DNA from: an uncultured Pelagibacteraceae bacterium
Lineage (GTDB): Bacteria > Pseudomonadota > Alphaproteobacteria > Pelagibacterales > Pelagibacteraceae
Direction of reading: 5' to 3'
Length of the DNA: 46,864 bases
Assembly (NCBI GenBank): GCA_902518835.1
Contig: CABYHH010000007.1
Coordinates: forward strand, 1 to 46,864
The notes below the pieces were generated by a model. It was not told where the DNA came from. It worked only from the letters and a program-made list of their open reading frames with translations, and searched no databases. This document shows, piece after piece, positions 21,160 to 33,648 of this stretch. The position numbers were made by a program, and so were the translations under genes. Numbering within the stretch: position 1 is the first letter of the stretch; each line of letters opens with the position of its first letter.

Positions 21160-21840
21160 TTATCCAATACCCTTCCAGGTATTTCCATCAGGTGTATAAT
21201 GATGATAAACAGAATGACTTGGGTCATAGAGAAAGTTCATATTGTTTTTTCTAATTTCTATGGCCCAATATCTATCTTCTTTACCAGATAAATTCTCATC
21301 AAATTTAAATTTAAGGAGTGTTTCTTTTTTATAGAATGAAAAAGCATTATGGAGAAAGTATCTATTTTCCATTGAGGAAAACATATTCTCTTCTTTTTTG
21401 TCCCCAAAATGTTCCCATATATATCGACTCGTTATCCTTTTTCCATCGATAACTGGAATTTGTTTTCCAAATACTGCTGAAAACTTTTTTAAACTCTCAA
21501 TCAATAAGCCGTGGTCTAAGTCTTTAATGACACAATGACTCGATATTATCATTAGATTATCATGCTTAGCTAACTCGACCCCTTTATTTAGAGCTTTTCC
21601 CGGTGTATAGTCTTTAATATTTTTAATACTAATATCACAATAATTAGACAATTCATTATTTGAAAAATTTGGATTAATTCTAAAATTTCTGGCAATCTCA
21701 ATTGTTCTATCATTAGAATTATTATCAATAATTAATATCTCTGGTTTATAAAAATTATCTATTACAGATTGGATTGTGTGGCCAACCCATCTTTCTTCAT
21801 TTTTTGTTCTTAATAATATTGAAAATTGGTTTTTGGTCAT
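21160..21840 (-). CDS. Glycosyltransferase family 2 (GT-A), short form
   Basis: The 226-residue protein has the GT2 start I-L-L-R-T-K-N-E-E-R-W-V-G, then I-L-I-I-D-N-N-S-N-D-R-T and P-G-K-A-L-N-K-G. In place of the DxD it shows I-S-S-H-C-V, followed by G-K-E-D-R-Y-W-A, and it ends H-H-Y-T-P-D-G-N-T-W-K-G-I-G. This ending recurs in a GT2 group from sugar-acid loci as far as I can recall, so I take the protein as complete rather than truncated despite its small size. Its downstream partner is only a remnant now. The S-S-H-C variant means metal binding may differ from classical GT-A enzymes. Confidence 0.82.
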   Translation of the reverse strand: MTKNQFSILLRTKNEERWVGHTIQSVIDNFYKPEILIIDNNSNDRTIEIARNFRINPNFSNNELSNYCDISIKNIKDYTPGKALNKGVELAKHDNLMIISSHCVIKDLDHGLLIESLKKFSAVFGKQIPVIDGKRITSRYIWEHFGDKKEENMFSSMENRYFLHNAFSFYKKETLLKFKFDENLSGKEDRYWAIEIRKNNMNFLYDPSHSVYHHYTPDGNTWKGIG

Positions 21841-22288: not shown

Positions 22289-24001
22289 GTGATTGGAAAT
22301 AAAAAAGTTTTAATAAATATTCTCGCTAGATCAGGATCTACAGGAATTAAAAATAAAAATGTAGCAGATTTAAACGGAAAACCTGTTTTATGGTATTCAA
22401 TTACAGAGGCGCTAAAAAGTAAATATGCTGATGACATATGTTTTTCTACAGACAGTCAAGAGTATGCTGATTTAGCCAAAGATACAACTGGCTTAGATAT
22501 TCCTTTTTTAAGAAACCCAAAATATGCCAAAAAAAACTCGACAGCAGCTGATGCATCAAGATGGACAACTCTAACTTTTGAAAAACATTCAGGTAAAAAA
22601 TATGATTTTATTGTTGATTTTATGAATTCAAATCCATTCAAAATTGTTGATGACTTAGATGCTTGTATAGAGATTTTATATAAAAATAAAAAAGCTGACA
22701 CTGTTGTGGCTGTTAACCGAGTTTGGGATGGGCATCCCAATAGAATTAAACAAATTGTTAATGGAGAAATTCAAGATTGGCCTGGTACTAAAGAAAAATT
22801 AGAGTCAATGAGACAAGAGCTTAGACCACCAGCTTATATCAGGAGTGGTTCTGTTTATGCAATGAAAAGACATGTGTTAATAGATGAGATTAATAGACGA
22901 GGAAAAATTAGTCTTCCATACATTATGCCTGATGAAAGAGTTTGTAATTTAGATGAACCAAAAGATTTATTCACAGCAAGAGCCATGATGGCTCAAAGAA
23001 GTCTAAGTTATAAAAAAGATTCTATTAAATCAAAAAAATTAAAAATTTTAGTCACCTCAAAAATTAGTGATCTAAAAGAAATTCTAGAGATTGTTAATAA
23101 TATTGGAGAAGTAAAAATATTAAATAATATAACAAGGTTACAATTAAAAAAAATAATTAATTTTTATGATGTCCTTCTATGCTCAACAAATATAAAAATA
23201 GATCAAGAGTTATTTAAAAAATTTAAAAAGATAAAAATAAAATATATAATTACACCTTCAGTTGGAATTGATCATCTAGATAAGCCATTTTTAAAAAAAA
23301 AGAAAATTAAAATTTTTTCATTAGTAAATTCTCATAATGATACAAAAAATATTTTTTCACCTGCTGAACTAACTTTTGCCCATATCCTAAATATTTCAAA
23401 AAATTTCTTAGGTGCCGTTTCATCTGTCAAAAATGGAAAATGGCAACCAAATAATCACATAGGTTTTGAATTAGATGGTAAGGTCATCGGAATAATTGGA
23501 ATGGGTGCAGTTGGTACTATCCTCGCAAAATATTGTATATCATTTGGTTTAAAAATCATTGCCTACGATCCATATAAAATAATAAATGATGTGCATATTA
23601 ATCAAGTAAGCGATTTAGATCAATTATTAACTAGTTCTGACATAATCTCCGTAAACGTATCGGGCATTAAAGAAAATACAAATTTGATTTCTGAGTATCA
23701 GTTTAAGTTAATGAAAAAAAATGCAATTTTAATAAATACTTCTAGAGGAAACACAGTGAACATTGAAGCTCTAATCAATAATATTGAGAAAATGAAAATT
23801 GCAGGTGCGGGAATTGACGTGATACAAAATGAACATGAATTTCCAAAAAATTATTCAAAGAAATTACTAAATAGGATGCTAAAATTACAAAAACAAAATA
23901 AGTTATTTATTACTCCTCATATTGCTGGCAGCACTTATGAAGCGAGAGTAAAAAGATTAAAATATGTTTTAAAATATTTTTTAAAAGAATTAAAAAAATG
24001 A
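22289..24001 (+). CDS. Fusion: CMP-sugar cytidylyltransferase + D-2-hydroxyacid dehydrogenase
   Basis: One 570-residue protein with two enzymes. Residues 4-235 are an acylneuraminate/Kdo cytidylyltransferase: I-L-A-R-S-G-S-T-G-I-K-N-K-N-V (CTP loop), F-S-T-D-S, D-F-M-N-S-N-P-F-K, and L-D222-E-P-K-D (metal Asp). Residues 250-570 are a D-2-hydroxyacid dehydrogenase: P-A-E-L near 359, G-M-G-A-V-G 404-409, Y-D-P after the second strand, T-S-R486-G, and T-P-H544-I-A-G; the usual E-P motif reads N-E-H-E-F-P. The start is GTG at 22289, since TGA lies six bases upstream in frame. It is the first gene of a four-gene operon. It probably oxidises or reduces a sugar acid and activates it with CMP; the substrate is unknown. 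Confidence 0.87.
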   Translation: MIGNKKVLINILARSGSTGIKNKNVADLNGKPVLWYSITEALKSKYADDICFSTDSQEYADLAKDTTGLDIPFLRNPKYAKKNSTAADASRWTTLTFEKHSGKKYDFIVDFMNSNPFKIVDDLDACIEILYKNKKADTVVAVNRVWDGHPNRIKQIVNGEIQDWPGTKEKLESMRQELRPPAYIRSGSVYAMKRHVLIDEINRRGKISLPYIMPDERVCNLDEPKDLFTARAMMAQRSLSYKKDSIKSKKLKILVTSKISDLKEILEIVNNIGEVKILNNITRLQLKKIINFYDVLLCSTNIKIDQELFKKFKKIKIKYIITPSVGIDHLDKPFLKKKKIKIFSLVNSHNDTKNIFSPAELTFAHILNISKNFLGAVSSVKNGKWQPNNHIGFELDGKVIGIIGMGAVGTILAKYCISFGLKIIAYDPYKIINDVHINQVSDLDQLLTSSDIISVNVSGIKENTNLISEYQFKLMKKNAILINTSRGNTVNIEALINNIEKMKIAGAGIDVIQNEHEFPKNYSKKLLNRMLKLQKQNKLFITPHIAGSTYEARVKRLKYVLKYFLKELKK

Positions 24002-25134
24002 AAATTCTTGATGTCCAGGGATATTCTTTATCCTCCGGGTTTGGCAATAAATCATATCTTGGTTATTTAAATAACAATAAGTTAAAAAATATTGGAGTGA
24101 TTGAAATAGTTACAAATAAGAAAATTATTGGATATGGAGAAACATATTCAGGTGTTTATGCTGGAGAATTGATTAAACCAATAATCGATTTTTTAAAAAC
24201 AAACATTGTGAACAAAAAATTAGAAAATATTGACGATATCAAAAAAATAAATAGTAAAATTTTATCAAAACCCTTCATATCTAGGAATGGAATCATTCCA
24301 TCAGTATACAGTGCAATTAATATAGCCTTATATGATGCGCTATCGCAACATAAAGAAATCCCATTGTATAAGTTACTCTCAAAAAAAAGCGCAAAAAAAG
24401 TGAGAGTGTACGCGAGCAATGGTTCATCTACATTTTCACCGAGAGAAATAAAAGAGGATGTTAACAAAATATTAGATCTTGGTTTTAATTCATTTAAAAT
24501 GAGGATCGGACATCAGGAGTGGGGTCAAGATCTAAAAAGAGTTGAGACAGCAAGAGCAATTCTAGAAGATAAAAATTTGATGCTAGATGCAATAATGGGC
24601 TCAATTTACCCCCCATGGGATTATGCCAAAGCAGATAAAAAATTAAGACAAATAAATAAATTTAATCCTTTGTGGATTGAAGAGCCACTAATTCCAAATG
24701 ACTATTATGGATACCAACGATTAAATAAAAAATATCCTATTGCAGGTGGAGAGGCTTTAAATAATTTATCTGATTATGGAATTTATAAAGAATTTAATTG
24801 TGTGGACTATATACAACCCGATGTAACTAATGTTGGAGGTTATGATGTTTTAAAAATGATAGCTCAATTATTCAAAAAAAAAAAAATTGCTATTCATGTT
24901 TGGGGAAGTAAAATAGCCTTTTTAGCCAATCTTCATTACTGCTTATCCAGTAGTGTGAATTTTCTCGAATATCCGATGATGAATCTTGATATTGATAAAG
25001 AAATAATCAAAGAAAGTCTCAAGATTGAAGGTAACTATATACATCCACCAGATGAACCTGGTCTTGGAGTTCATATTTCTTCATCAGTAAAAAGGAAATA
25101 TAAGATTAAGAAAATGTCAAATTATCTTTTATGA
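23998..25134 (+). CDS. Enolase-superfamily (mandelate racemase/muconate-lactonizing type) sugar-acid dehydratase or epimerase
   Basis: The 378-residue protein has the capping domain then the (beta/alpha)8 barrel. F-K167-M-R169 is at the end of strand 2. Metal ligands are D197 (M-L-D-A), E228 (W-I-E-E-P) and E252 (A-G-G-E-A). A His-Asp pair is H300 (A-I-H-V-W) with D275 (Q-P-D-V). This matches the mandelate racemase subgroup, which removes a proton alpha to a carboxylate; most such bacterial enzymes dehydrate aldonates to 2-keto-3-deoxy acids. The second residue of the K-x-K motif is Arg. ATGA overlaps join it to both neighbours. A run of 13 A (24874-24886) codes for four lysines shortly before H300. 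Confidence 0.86.
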   Translation: MKILDVQGYSLSSGFGNKSYLGYLNNNKLKNIGVIEIVTNKKIIGYGETYSGVYAGELIKPIIDFLKTNIVNKKLENIDDIKKINSKILSKPFISRNGIIPSVYSAINIALYDALSQHKEIPLYKLLSKKSAKKVRVYASNGSSTFSPREIKEDVNKILDLGFNSFKMRIGHQEWGQDLKRVETARAILEDKNLMLDAIMGSIYPPWDYAKADKKLRQINKFNPLWIEEPLIPNDYYGYQRLNKKYPIAGGEALNNLSDYGIYKEFNCVDYIQPDVTNVGGYDVLKMIAQLFKKKKIAIHVWGSKIAFLANLHYCLSSSVNFLEYPMMNLDIDKEIIKESLKIEGNYIHPPDEPGLGVHISSSVKRKYKIKKMSNYLL

Positions 25135-26081
25135 TTCATATATATTGCGATTTAATTAAAAGGACAAAAATAAATAATTTACCAAAATGGGGTAAAATTA
25201 AAATAAAATCACAATTTCCAGGAATTAAATTTGTTTATTCTATTAAAAAAGAAAATAAAAAAATATTAGTATATTTTGGAGATTTGATCACAAAAGAAAA
25301 AATAGAGCTAATGCCAAATTTAAAATGGATACACTTTTCATCTTCTGGTACCAACAGGGCTCAATTAGAAATAGTGAAAAAAAGGAAAATAGTTATAACA
25401 AACAGTCCTGATGGATTTGTAAATTCTCTTGCATCACTGGGCTTAGCACATATTTTTTCTTTTGCTCGAGGCTTGCATTTTGTAAATAATTTAAGAAATA
25501 AAAAAAAATTAAATAGGAATGAAATTGATAGATATTATTATTTCATTGATGATTTAAGAGAAAAAAATATACTTATAGCAGGCTTTGGTAAGGTAGGAAA
25601 GCTGATTGCAAACGTGCTTAAGATAATGGGTGCAAACATACATGTAATGGTGAAAAATAATAAAAAAACAAATTCTAATAATTTTAATTTTTATTATTCA
25701 AATAAAATTTCAAGATTTATTCATAAGATGGATTATGTAGTAAATCTTCTACCATTAAATAATGATACTTTAAAATTTTTTGATATTAATCTTTTTAAAA
25801 AAATGAAAAAAAATTCATATTTTATTTCTTTAGGTAGAGGTCAAACAGTAGTTGAGAAAGATTTAATAAAAGCGTTAAAAAAGAAATTAATATTGGGTGC
25901 TGCATTAGATGTTTTTGAAAAAGAACCTCTGTCTAAAAAGTCAACATTATTTAAGTTGAAAAATGTAATTTTAACTCCTCACATTGGTAATATTAATCAT
26001 AAATATTGGAAATATGAAATTGACTTATTTTCAAAAAAACTTAAAATTTTTTTAGATAAATTAGATTATGACAAAAAATGA
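25131..26081 (+). CDS. D-2-hydroxyacid dehydrogenase (NAD/NADP-dependent)
   Basis: A second, free-standing dehydrogenase of the same superfamily, 316 residues. It has L-I-A-G-F-G-K-V-G (dinucleotide loop), V-N-L-L-P-L-N, S-L-G-R-G-Q (catalytic Arg), L-D-V-F-E-K-E-P (catalytic Glu) and T-P-H-I-G-N (catalytic His), so the full catalytic set is present. Unlike the fused copy, the E-P motif is canonical. The T-A-E segment is replaced by N-S-L-A-S-L-G-L-A. The ATG overlaps the enolase-superfamily stop (ATGA) and its 3' end overlaps the DAHPS-like gene by 14 bases. It may interconvert a 2-keto acid and a 2-hydroxy acid in the same pathway. Confidence 0.88.
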   Translation: MIHIYCDLIKRTKINNLPKWGKIKIKSQFPGIKFVYSIKKENKKILVYFGDLITKEKIELMPNLKWIHFSSSGTNRAQLEIVKKRKIVITNSPDGFVNSLASLGLAHIFSFARGLHFVNNLRNKKKLNRNEIDRYYYFIDDLREKNILIAGFGKVGKLIANVLKIMGANIHVMVKNNKKTNSNNFNFYYSNKISRFIHKMDYVVNLLPLNNDTLKFFDINLFKKMKKNSYFISLGRGQTVVEKDLIKALKKKLILGAALDVFEKEPLSKKSTLFKLKNVILTPHIGNINHKYWKYEIDLFSKKLKIFLDKLDYDKK

Positions 26082-26922
26082 ATATATAGAAAGTTTGATT
26101 AAAGCCGATAAAATTAAACATACAGTTGATAAAAGTATAAACTTTCAATTTCAAATAGGATCAAAAACATTAGGTGAGGAAAAAGTTTTAATTGCCGGTC
26201 CATGTTCAGTTGAGTCAAAAGATATGATCATAGATGTTTCTTTAAAATTAAAAGAAATTGGTGTTGATGCCCTAAGAGGTGGTGCTTATAAACCTTGCAC
26301 ATATCCTGTGAGAAAATCTGTAAATGGTTGGAAAGAAGGGTTGCAGAAAGAAGGTCTTGAATATTTATTGAATGCAAAAGATAAATCTGGCCTGCCTATT
26401 GTTACAGAGGTTATGGATGCCTCGAAAATAAATTTAGTATCAGAATATGCGGATATTTTTCAGGTAGGTACAAGAAATTTCCAAAACTACACGCTTCTAG
26501 ACGAACTTGGAAAACAAGATAAGCCCATCCTATTAAAAAGAGGCACGTGGGGAACTTTAGATGAGATATTGGGAGCATGTGAAAGAATTATTGAAGGTGG
26601 AAACACTAAAATTGCAATATGTTTAAGGGGTGTTGTGGGCATGCCAAGCTATAGGCATATTTTTCCATCAACAAGATGGGCTCCAGATTTAATGATGATT
26701 CCAGCACTTAAGGAATTTACAAATATCCCAATTATATATGATCCAAGCCATGCTACTGGTTATAGAAATTTTGTTTTACCAATCTCAAAAGCTGCAATGG
26801 CACTAAATGTGGATGGATTAATTGTTGAATGCCATCCAAAACCTGAGAAATCTATAAGCGACCCTGATCAGGCTATAACATTTAATAATTTAAAAAAAAT
26901 AAAAGAACTCTTCAAGAATTAA
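26068..26922 (+). CDS. DAHP-synthase-like (class I-beta) PEP aldolase with altered aldose-phosphate site
   Basis: Family members condense phosphoenolpyruvate with an aldose phosphate to make a 3-deoxy-ulosonate. The 284-residue protein shows I-A-G-P-C46-S-V-E-S (metal Cys), L-R-G-G-A-Y-K75-P, T-E-V-M-D, I-F-Q-V-G-T-R-N, L-L-K-R-G-T, D-P-S-H-A and I-V-E-C-H-P, the frame of Thermotoga/Bacillus-type DAHP synthase without ACT or chorismate mutase domains. The segment that binds the erythrose-4-phosphate phosphate is normally K-P-R-T-S-P; here it is K-P-C77-T-Y-P. The substrate is therefore likely different. It is the last gene of the operon, so it probably serves glycan rather than aromatic synthesis; the latter is not excluded. 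Confidence 0.85.
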   Translation: MTKNEYIESLIKADKIKHTVDKSINFQFQIGSKTLGEEKVLIAGPCSVESKDMIIDVSLKLKEIGVDALRGGAYKPCTYPVRKSVNGWKEGLQKEGLEYLLNAKDKSGLPIVTEVMDASKINLVSEYADIFQVGTRNFQNYTLLDELGKQDKPILLKRGTWGTLDEILGACERIIEGGNTKIAICLRGVVGMPSYRHIFPSTRWAPDLMMIPALKEFTNIPIIYDPSHATGYRNFVLPISKAAMALNVDGLIVECHPKPEKSISDPDQAITFNNLKKIKELFKN

Positions 26923-31602: not shown

Positions 31603-33648
31603 TCAATTTAATCTTGAAAACGTAGATTGAGAAACTGGTCCTTTAAGAATAGATTTTGATTTTATTTGTTTTTTTTTAAATTTTGATATTTTTTTTATAA
31701 TAATTTCAAATTCTTTTAAATAATTTAAAATTATTTTTCGAGTGTGTGCAGTGCTAACATAAATTGTATTAGTAGCCAAAATATTCTTCTTCAACATTTC
31801 TTGTGTCAAATATGTTTTCAAAACTTGATGATCATTATCAAAAGTAAATGTTGGCATAGCATTTAATCCTGAAATATTAATATTTATATTATATTTTTCA
31901 CAAATCTCTTTCCATTTCTTTTTTATAAATTCTCCAGAGCGATTAATTTTGTTCCATGGTTTTGTTTTTTCCATTATTTCTATGGTTTTTAAAGCTGCCG
32001 AAACTCCTATTTTTTCAGTCCAAAAAGTACTGCTGACAAATGTGTTTTTTGCTTTTTTCATAATTTTATTTTTTCCCAAAACTGCTGTTATTCCATAACC
32101 ATTTCCAATTGCTTTTCCAAATGTTGCTATGTCAGGATTAACCCCATATTGTAAATGTAGACCACCAAGATTATATCTAAAACCTGTTGTACATTCATCA
32201 AATATAAGAATTATTTTATTATCATTACAAATTTTTCTAATTTTTTTTAAAAAATTATTTTCTGGTTTAAAATTTCTAGAAACTTCCATTATTAAAGAAG
32301 ATATTTTATTTTTATTATTTTTAATAATATTTATTAGTTCATTGATTTCGTTATATTTAAAAGCTAGGATGCTATTTTTTAATGATTTGCTTACACCCTC
32401 CGTCTTAATCCCTTTTAATAAATGTTGATCTACTTTTTTATCAACTAAATTATTTGCTAAATACCAATCATTCCATCCGTGATAACCACAAAAGATCACT
32501 AAATCTTTTTTTGTAAAAGCTCTTGATAATCTAATTGCGATTGAATTAGCGTCGGCGCCAGTTCTTGCAAATTTAACCATATTAGACCACTTATGAATTT
32601 TAATTAGTTTTTCTGCTAAAATTATTTCATCAGGATTGTTTAATGTTGTAAGATTACCGGACTTTATTGCTTTAGAAACAGACTTATTTACTTGAGAATT
32701 GTTGTATCCTAGAATATTTGTTCCAACTCCCATAAAACTCAAGTCCAAATATTTTTTTTTATCTAAACCCCAAATTTTACAACCTTCTGATTTGGTATAA
32801 TAGGTCGGCCAATTCTCTGGTAGAAAAATCTCTGGTCTTTTAGATAAAAGCATATTACCTCCTGGAATTACTTTTTTTGCTCGTTGCCAATATTTAAAAT
32901 TTTTTGACATTAATGACCCTTGATTATTAATAATATCTTTATTTATTTTTGATAAATCCTTATTTTTTTTTAAAATATTTATCATATCATTCATAGTAAA
33001 ATCTATATTTTGTATTTTTTTAAGAAGTATTTTTATAAGTTTAAGATCTTTTGATTCATCAACTGATAACCTAAAATTTGATAAATTGTTTGATAATTTA
33101 AAATTAAATTTTTTCAATTTTTTACTTCGCTTAATAAAAGGGGTTACGTGCTCTTTATCATGCGAAGAAGTTGCATTTTTATAAGCTAATTCAAGAGATC
33201 TAAAATTAAAAACTTCTACATCAAACCCATCAGGATAAGTATATTCTAAAGTATTACTTACATAATCAAATTTTGTTTTAAATTTTTTATTATCTATTTT
33301 ATTAATAAATTTATCAATAATTCTATGATCAACAAAAGGACAATCACCAGTTATTCTTATTATGATTTTCGATTTATCTTTTTTCGCAATTTTATAATAC
33401 CTATTAAGTACATTTTCCTCACTTCCACGAAAAACTTTTACTTTACTATTTTTAAATAATTTACAAAGCTTGTTATCTTCAGATTTAGTTGTTGTGGCTA
33501 AATAAAAACTATTGATTTTTTTGGATCTAAATAATCTTAAAAATAAAAATTCAATTAAAGAATAATCCTTGTTTATTTTTTCTAAAACTTTATTTGGATA
33601 CCTTATGGAACCACATCTTGCTTGAACTATTACAGTTATATTTTCCAT
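31603..33648 (-). CDS. Fusion: SpsF-type cytidylyltransferase + glutamate-1-semialdehyde aminotransferase-like protein
   Basis: A 681-residue bifunctional protein. Residues 1-235 form an SpsF/NeuA-like CMP-sugar transferase (V-I-V-Q-A-R-C-G-S-I-R-Y-P-N-K-V, R-I-T-G-D102-C-P-F-V-D107, N-F-R-L-S-V-D). Residues 247-681 form a class III PLP aminotransferase of the GSAM type: K-V-I-P-G-G, R-T-G-A-D-A-N, G-Y-H-G-W-N-D, I-F-D484-E-C-T-T-G-F-R and T-F-G-K512-A-I-G-N-G with the Schiff-base Lys. An internal Met at 247 (base 32910) would begin a normal aminotransferase, so the fusion is end to end. Between neuB and an aldo/keto reductase, it probably supplies the sugar amino group and CMP-activates the nonulosonic acid. 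Confidence 0.89.
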   Translation of the reverse strand: MENITVIVQARCGSIRYPNKVLEKINKDYSLIEFLFLRLFRSKKINSFYLATTTKSEDNKLCKLFKNSKVKVFRGSEENVLNRYYKIAKKDKSKIIIRITGDCPFVDHRIIDKFINKIDNKKFKTKFDYVSNTLEYTYPDGFDVEVFNFRSLELAYKNATSSHDKEHVTPFIKRSKKLKKFNFKLSNNLSNFRLSVDESKDLKLIKILLKKIQNIDFTMNDMINILKKNKDLSKINKDIINNQGSLMSKNFKYWQRAKKVIPGGNMLLSKRPEIFLPENWPTYYTKSEGCKIWGLDKKKYLDLSFMGVGTNILGYNNSQVNKSVSKAIKSGNLTTLNNPDEIILAEKLIKIHKWSNMVKFARTGADANSIAIRLSRAFTKKDLVIFCGYHGWNDWYLANNLVDKKVDQHLLKGIKTEGVSKSLKNSILAFKYNEINELINIIKNNKNKISSLIMEVSRNFKPENNFLKKIRKICNDNKIILIFDECTTGFRYNLGGLHLQYGVNPDIATFGKAIGNGYGITAVLGKNKIMKKAKNTFVSSTFWTEKIGVSAALKTIEIMEKTKPWNKINRSGEFIKKKWKEICEKYNININISGLNAMPTFTFDNDHQVLKTYLTQEMLKKNILATNTIYVSTAHTRKIILNYLKEFEIIIKKISKFKKKQIKSKSILKGPVSQSTFSRLN

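Follow-up and report, generated by a model that had tools for sequence, protein, structure and literature searches.

A single open frame in the genome of an uncultured Pelagibacteraceae bacterium joins a NeuA-type CMP-transferase to a D-2-hydroxyacid dehydrogenase (2HADH). Comparison with related bacterial and viral loci suggests that its product is probably a bifunctional enzyme in the synthesis of surface polysaccharide (O-antigen type), where it would serve a dedicated CMP-ulosonic-acid branch with synthase, dehydrogenase, and CMP-transferase in one pathway. Both domains come from known superfamilies, and the pairing points to an undescribed surface-sugar pathway. The frame (22289-24001, + strand; 570 codons, GTG start, no internal stops) lies in contig CABYHH010000007.1, of which we analyzed a stretch of 46,864 nucleotides (the window; G+C content, 23.7%), from an assembly of ~1.0 Mb. 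The fusion and its neighbors are as follows.

22289..22993 (+): cytidylyltransferase (NeuA-type) domain, residues 1-235, with P-loop ARSGSTGIKNKN, R175-Q176, R185, and N220-x-D222 (PF02348)
22994..23038 (+): flexible linker, residues ~236-250, disordered at 239-248 by pLDDT
23039..23998 (+): D-2-hydroxyacid dehydrogenase domain, residues ~251-570 (PF00389/PF02826, motif alignment, Foldseek)
23998..25134 (+): mandelate-racemase/enolase superfamily protein, sugar-acid dehydratase-like (Pfam MR_MLE_N/C), overlapping the fusion stop by 4 bases
25131..26081 (+): second D-2-hydroxyacid dehydrogenase of another subfamily (2HADH2; Pfam), outside the fusion dehydrogenase clade in the tree
26068..26922 (+): PEP-dependent aldolase, DAHP-synthase-like, additional to the class II DAHPS and KDO8PS-like genes of the genome
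21160..21840 (-): GT2-type protein, 226 amino acids (PF00535), divergent from the fusion

Pfam placed CTP_transf_3 (PF02348) on residues 11-141 (59.5 bits; gathering cut-off, 22.6), 2-Hacid_dh (PF00389) on residues 253-521 (42.3 bits; cut-off, 24.6), and 2-Hacid_dh_C (PF02826) on residues 363-546 (151.4 bits; cut-off, 25.1). The N-terminal half is thus a member of the CTP_transf_3 family, and the C-terminal half, which also has the G-x-G-x-x-G motif and the Arg-Glu-His set, is a member of the D-2-hydroxyacid dehydrogenase family. Both domains scored below every equivalog cut-off tried in NCBIfam, including those of PseF (TIGR03584; residues 11-233, 87.8 against 205.7 bits) and PGDH (TIGR01327; residues 252-555, 189.3 against 454 bits), and the KdsB subfamily model gave 28.9 bits against a cut-off of 193. 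Structure prediction of the domain interface, proposed as a check when the fusion was first noticed, was run with AlphaFold2 (40 related sequences) and returned two well-folded domains (mean pLDDT, 91.3) separated by a stretch with pLDDT below 50 (residues 239-248); because pTM was 0.62, the model does not fix how the domains lie relative to each other and there is no defined interface. The predicted protein is therefore best described as two independently folded enzymes tethered by a flexible linker, with no composite active site. The original prediction of two complete enzymes of different families in one uninterrupted frame agrees with both Pfam and AlphaFold2. An ATG-ATG lies at 22985-22990, directly before the linker and downstream of a weak purine stretch, and the Met-Met is also found in the closest relative; an internal start at this position could in principle yield a free dehydrogenase.

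This closest relative, on contig CACDMT010000013.1 of the uncultured alphaproteobacterial single cell AG-365-O06 (L004), encodes a fusion 77% identical to that of the window, with the three downstream genes also conserved in their order (MR_MLE dehydratase-like, second 2HADH, and DAHP-synthase-like aldolase). Between the two, the CMP-transferase part gave dN 0.065 and dS 0.99 (dN/dS, ~0.07) and the dehydrogenase part dN 0.19 and dS 1.25 (dN/dS, ~0.15), ratios indicating purifying selection on both domains, with the linker as the fastest-changing stretch. The chance that two genes were joined by a frameshift or mis-assembly is negligible: the assembly is 86% complete in 42 contigs and yielded no evidence for such an error, whereas the joined frame and its operon are conserved in an independent single-cell genome, both halves are under selection, and further fusions exist. 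Artefact was accordingly rejected, as was uniqueness of the fusion to this sequence, since it occurs in L004 plus eleven further genomes; these were the two outcomes that had been named as fatal to the original prediction.

A search for the domain pair, and comparison with separate-gene versions, followed the checks originally suggested. Fusions were found in the window genome and L004, in G013 (L029) and G185 (L030) of the same family, and in nine genomes of families f197 and f192, which lie outside the class and within the phylum. Separate, adjacent CMP-transferase and dehydrogenase genes were found in G149, G069, and G156 of the same family (L031, L032, and L034), in families f208 and f197 (L105-L110 and L125), and in phages. 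Fusion is not the rule, and SAR11-type relatives and phages have separate neighboring genes, with an overlap of a few bases in L031 and in phages. Nor is adjacency absolute, because a dehydrogenase of the module clade is missing from L033, which does have CMP-transferase, NeuB-like, and 2HADH2/MR_MLE genes, and some f192 and f60 genomes have the dehydrogenase beside NeuB at one site and the CMP-transferase gene at another. Other genes were seen beside or resembling these loci: an HMGL-like aldolase family protein (L030:4487-6073, 528 amino acids) and a second CTP_transf_3 gene (L030:3734-4459) adjoin the L030 fusion, and other CMP-transferase-containing proteins of 580-583 amino acids are encoded at L211:4474-6216, L215:7006-8757, and L212:7473-9221, that of L211 having a methyltransferase domain and DAHPS-like, radical SAM, aminotransferase, and shikimate-dehydrogenase-like neighbors.

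Clustering of neighbors around the CMP-transferase/dehydrogenase module identified the NeuB-like synthase as the most widespread further family (18 lineage groups), followed by nucleotide-sugar epimerases, two GT2 families, ABC transporters, and UDP-glucose-dehydrogenase-type proteins. The C-terminal SAF domain is missing from many of these synthases, which keep the EIG-NH, KFQ, HC-YP, SDH, and EKHFT motifs. Comparison of these loci shows co-inheritance of both domains with a PEP-dependent ulosonate synthase. The module resembles the nonulosonic acid and Kdo pathways (NeuB or KdsA, then NeuA or KdsB) in combining a PEP-dependent synthase with a CMP-transferase in surface polysaccharide loci, but differs in its often SAF-less NeuB-like partner and in having a 2HADH as the constant member instead of NeuC, PseG, or KdsD/KdsC, none of which was found as a constant partner of the module.

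Viral contigs were scanned with an alignment of the CMP-transferases alone, which returned 24 loci; one pattern includes the Arg of R185, which biases the scan toward that residue and not toward the dehydrogenase. All 23 complete loci, some of them on contigs that are near-copies of one another, had the NeuB-like synthase, CMP-transferase, and dehydrogenase together, with the latter two adjacent or close; the 24th is cut off within the CMP-transferase gene, and its dehydrogenase is visible. In L078, a late sigma factor match next to the cassette, for which L074 and L077 have homologues, suggests T4-like phages. Viral contigs L160-L182 carry the NeuB-like/CMP-transferase/2HADH set, and at least some of them are T4-like. 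In collections of phage and plasmid records, we found no fusion and only general 2HADH matches, and the phage records did not have the paired set.

Among solved sequences, the N-terminal domain is closest to the CMP-Neu5Ac synthetases 6ifd, 9ftb, and 1eyr. It has R14, K23, N24, R175, Q176, and D222, and in alignments to the solved sequences N220 occupies the position that is normally the first Asp of D-x-D in NeuA-type enzymes, a substitution found subfamily-wide. We compared 31 module CMP-transferases (fused to the dehydrogenase, adjacent to it, or of the same lineage with a dehydrogenase at another place in the genome) with 30 lacking a neighboring dehydrogenase. Both sets share the general catalytic residues, whereas R185 (31/31 against 1/30), N220 (30/31 against 1/30), and H149 (31/31 against 5/30) separate them; a Fisher test on these counts overstates because the sequences are related, and the clean split is the point. 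The N-terminal domain is thereby shown by sequence comparison to belong to a distinct subfamily of predicted NeuA-type CMP-transferases: it shares with NeuA (PF02348) the fold, the P-loop R-x-G-S-x(5)-K-N, the R-Q pair, and the final Asp of the metal motif, and departs from it in N-x-D for D-x-D, R185, H149, and a fused or paired 2HADH.

In the dehydrogenase half, G-x-G-x-x-G (404-409), D427, R486, E515, and H544 are intact. The original prediction described N-E-H-E-F-P as replacing the usual E-P motif, which is correct for the Pro and not for the Glu: relative to the usual DVFxxEP, the catalytic Glu (E515) is retained and the Pro alone is missing. The loss is a subfamily trait, as this Pro is absent in nearly the whole related dehydrogenase set, in which R486, E515, and H544 are kept; module dehydrogenases also have an S-x-G-x-x-H-[IL]-D loop and a longer, Pro-less loop after the catalytic Glu. 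Some badly cut comparison rows of a first tree (58 rows) were dropped, and the tree was recomputed. In the tree, module dehydrogenases form a clade apart from the other 2HADHs of the same genomes (support, 97/91), and a hitch-hiking housekeeping SerA was rejected on this basis. The C-terminal domain is shown by such comparison to be a distinct clade of D-2-hydroxyacid dehydrogenases, sharing with them the two-domain fold, the G-x-G-x-x-G, and the Arg-Glu-His set, and differing from phosphoglycerate dehydrogenase, glyoxylate reductase, and D-lactate dehydrogenase in its own clade, its S-x-G-x-x-H-[IL]-D loop, and its missing Pro.

The nearest solved relatives of the domain, by sequence and Foldseek, are nonetheless phosphoglycerate/glyoxylate/lactate-type 2HADHs (1wwk phosphoglycerate dehydrogenase being closest by sequence), which favors a reading in which the dehydrogenase makes a 2-hydroxyacyl decoration (D-glycerate/D-lactate type) or a general metabolite and was fused merely as an operon neighbor. 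Decorated nonulosonic acids are known, and the overlapping separate genes would be an easy starting point for fusion. Against this, the families that recur around the module include no conspicuous acyltransferase or ligase, and the association reaches residues inside the CMP-transferase, which a mere neighbor does not predict; we regard this reading as unlikely.

How the fusion arose was addressed with both domains. In the CMP-domain tree, the window and L004 fall among L031 and L032, whose genes are separate, and a joint clade of all fusions was rejected (p-AU, 0.002). The dehydrogenase tree did not reject one (p-AU, 0.60), and a single fusion clade appeared in 0 of 200 bootstrap trees of the cleaner dehydrogenase set. 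Two or more fusions are favored by these trees, not proven, over one fusion with later splits. In four f192 fusions, the CMP-transferase domain is degenerate.

L101:7627-9408, L102:4473-6365, L103:6691-8466, and L104:1899-3725: degenerate-CMP fusions of family f192

The P-loop R/K/N, the R-Q pair, and N-x-D are all gone from their fused CMP-transferase domains, the dehydrogenase domains are intact, and an intact stand-alone CMP-transferase gene is present elsewhere in each genome. By its missing residues, the fused CMP-transferase domain of these proteins is a predicted pseudo-enzyme half, and catalysis in cis is not needed. These four would fit a scaffolding or regulatory role, without catalysis, for one fused domain; in the window protein and eight further fusions, however, both domains have the general catalytic residues, making such a role very unlikely.

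The operon of the window differs from most related loci in its synthase, a DAHPS-like enzyme standing in place of the usual NeuB, which we count, together with the exceptions to adjacency and the undefined domain interface, against the pathway proposed here. This aldolase scored 261.1 bits against the B. subtilis-type DAHP synthase model (TIGR01361), below the equivalog cut-off of 267.75, and the KPRTS erythrose-4-phosphate acceptor motif reads KPCTYP in the window and KPATFP in L004. Class II DAHPS and KDO8PS-like genes are found on other contigs of the genome, as is a stronger CTP_transf_3 gene (contig C2); because of these, the operon is not that of the Kdo or shikimate pathway, and a Kdo enzyme was rejected for the fusion. 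Out of 12 other genomes of the sampled family with a similar DAHPS-like gene, 11 have it within ~9 kb (mostly ~3 kb) of a CMP-transferase, and this type of aldolase therefore belongs to CMP-ulosonate loci in general; the oxidoreductases at the examined loci are of the GFO/IDH/MocA or shikimate-dehydrogenase type. The best solved relative of the MR_MLE protein is galactonate dehydratase 5olc, and its counterpart in L004 is in the same place and 76% identical; the 2HADH2 gene is paired with an MR_MLE gene in L033 as well as in L004. Homologues of the GT2 protein adjoin the module in L004, L031, L032, L033, f208, and f192 (44-57% identity). The window GT2 matches the N-terminal half of GT2 proteins of 441-455 amino acids (L212:6099-7466, L214:4696-6021, and L107:4572-5927), whose C-terminal half resembles cytidylyltransferase/NTP transferase. 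The window has a second CMP-transferase fusion at 31603-33648 (-), where CTP_transf_3 is joined to a class III aminotransferase (681 amino acids) in a Pse-like cluster (PseB-like, 34500; aldo/keto reductase, 33636; NeuB, 30530); a 47% relative was found in L212.

In the pathway that we favor, the synthase (DAHPS-like at 26068-26922 here, NeuB-like in most relatives) would add PEP to an aldehyde, giving a 3-deoxy-2-ulosonic acid; the N-terminal domain would convert this with CTP to its CMP derivative; and a glycosyltransferase, perhaps the GT2 at 21160-21840, would use the CMP-ulosonic acid. Least certain is the step of the C-terminal domain, which may convert a 2-hydroxy acid of the same pathway to a 2-oxo acid, or the reverse, with NAD(H), a cofactor assigned because D427 follows the second Rossmann strand.

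The original prediction tied the dehydrogenase to the activated molecule. A shared pathway is upheld by the fusions, the adjacency, the complete viral loci, the dehydrogenase clade, and R185/N220; a shared molecule is not. Oxidation of a 2-hydroxy acid to a 2-oxo acid, with CMP-capping of the new keto carbon and channeling by the fusion, would be chemically neat, in that a 2HADH could create the future anomeric center; a tether would suit an unstable 2-oxo acid, and fusion has occurred in several lineages. However, a PEP-dependent synthase, itself making the 2-oxo group, is present at nearly every module locus and renders the oxidation redundant, and the f192 fusions pair a dead CMP-transferase domain with a live dehydrogenase. 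In CMP-ketoside chemistry, the 2-keto group must survive as the anomeric center for CMP transfer, and thus a dehydrogenase that simply reduced C2 of the ulosonate itself would make activation impossible. Action on the activated molecule itself is therefore improbable. With C2 reduction blocking CMP transfer and C2 oxidation redundant, the dehydrogenase step would more likely precede CMP transfer, either in making or trimming a precursor or at a second 2-hydroxyacid end.

More speculatively, and with a low probability, the cassette might make and activate an undescribed kind of ulosonic acid, such as a dicarboxylic (ulosaric) acid. The synthase would then add PEP to an acid-bearing aldehyde, the 2HADH would act at the end bearing the 2-hydroxy acid, and the second carboxylate might be read by R185 in the CMP-transferase. 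Hints in this direction are the sugar-acid dehydratase in the operon of the window and in L033, the UDP-sugar-dehydrogenase-type genes near several other copies, the SAF-less NeuB partners, and the specificity of R185 to partnered CMP-transferases.

A search of mostly open-access literature found no description of the fusion or the cassette, and a 2HADH classification paper (PMC6303947) makes no mention of "cytidyl-" or "sialic." The nearest published parallel found is in Vibrio B9-25K2, where an SpsF-like cytidylyltransferase carries an aldo-keto reductase domain in a Pse cluster (PMC7371886); it likewise fuses a CMP-transferase to an oxidoreductase in a nonulosonic-acid cluster, but the oxidoreductase is of another superfamily and the context is the Pse pathway.

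The PEP-dependent ulosonate synthase, R185/N220 CMP-transferase, and 2HADH make a recognizable three-enzyme cassette, which sits in variable surface-sugar loci of SAR11-type bacteria, in other bacteria of the phylum, and in T4-like phages. Its sequence signature marks a class of CMP-activated sugars whose enzymes current family models would call a sialic acid synthetase and a phosphoglycerate dehydrogenase, and its proteins are a set small enough for direct assay. That phages carry the cassette so constantly suggests a short pathway, complete in itself, by which the host surface is altered.
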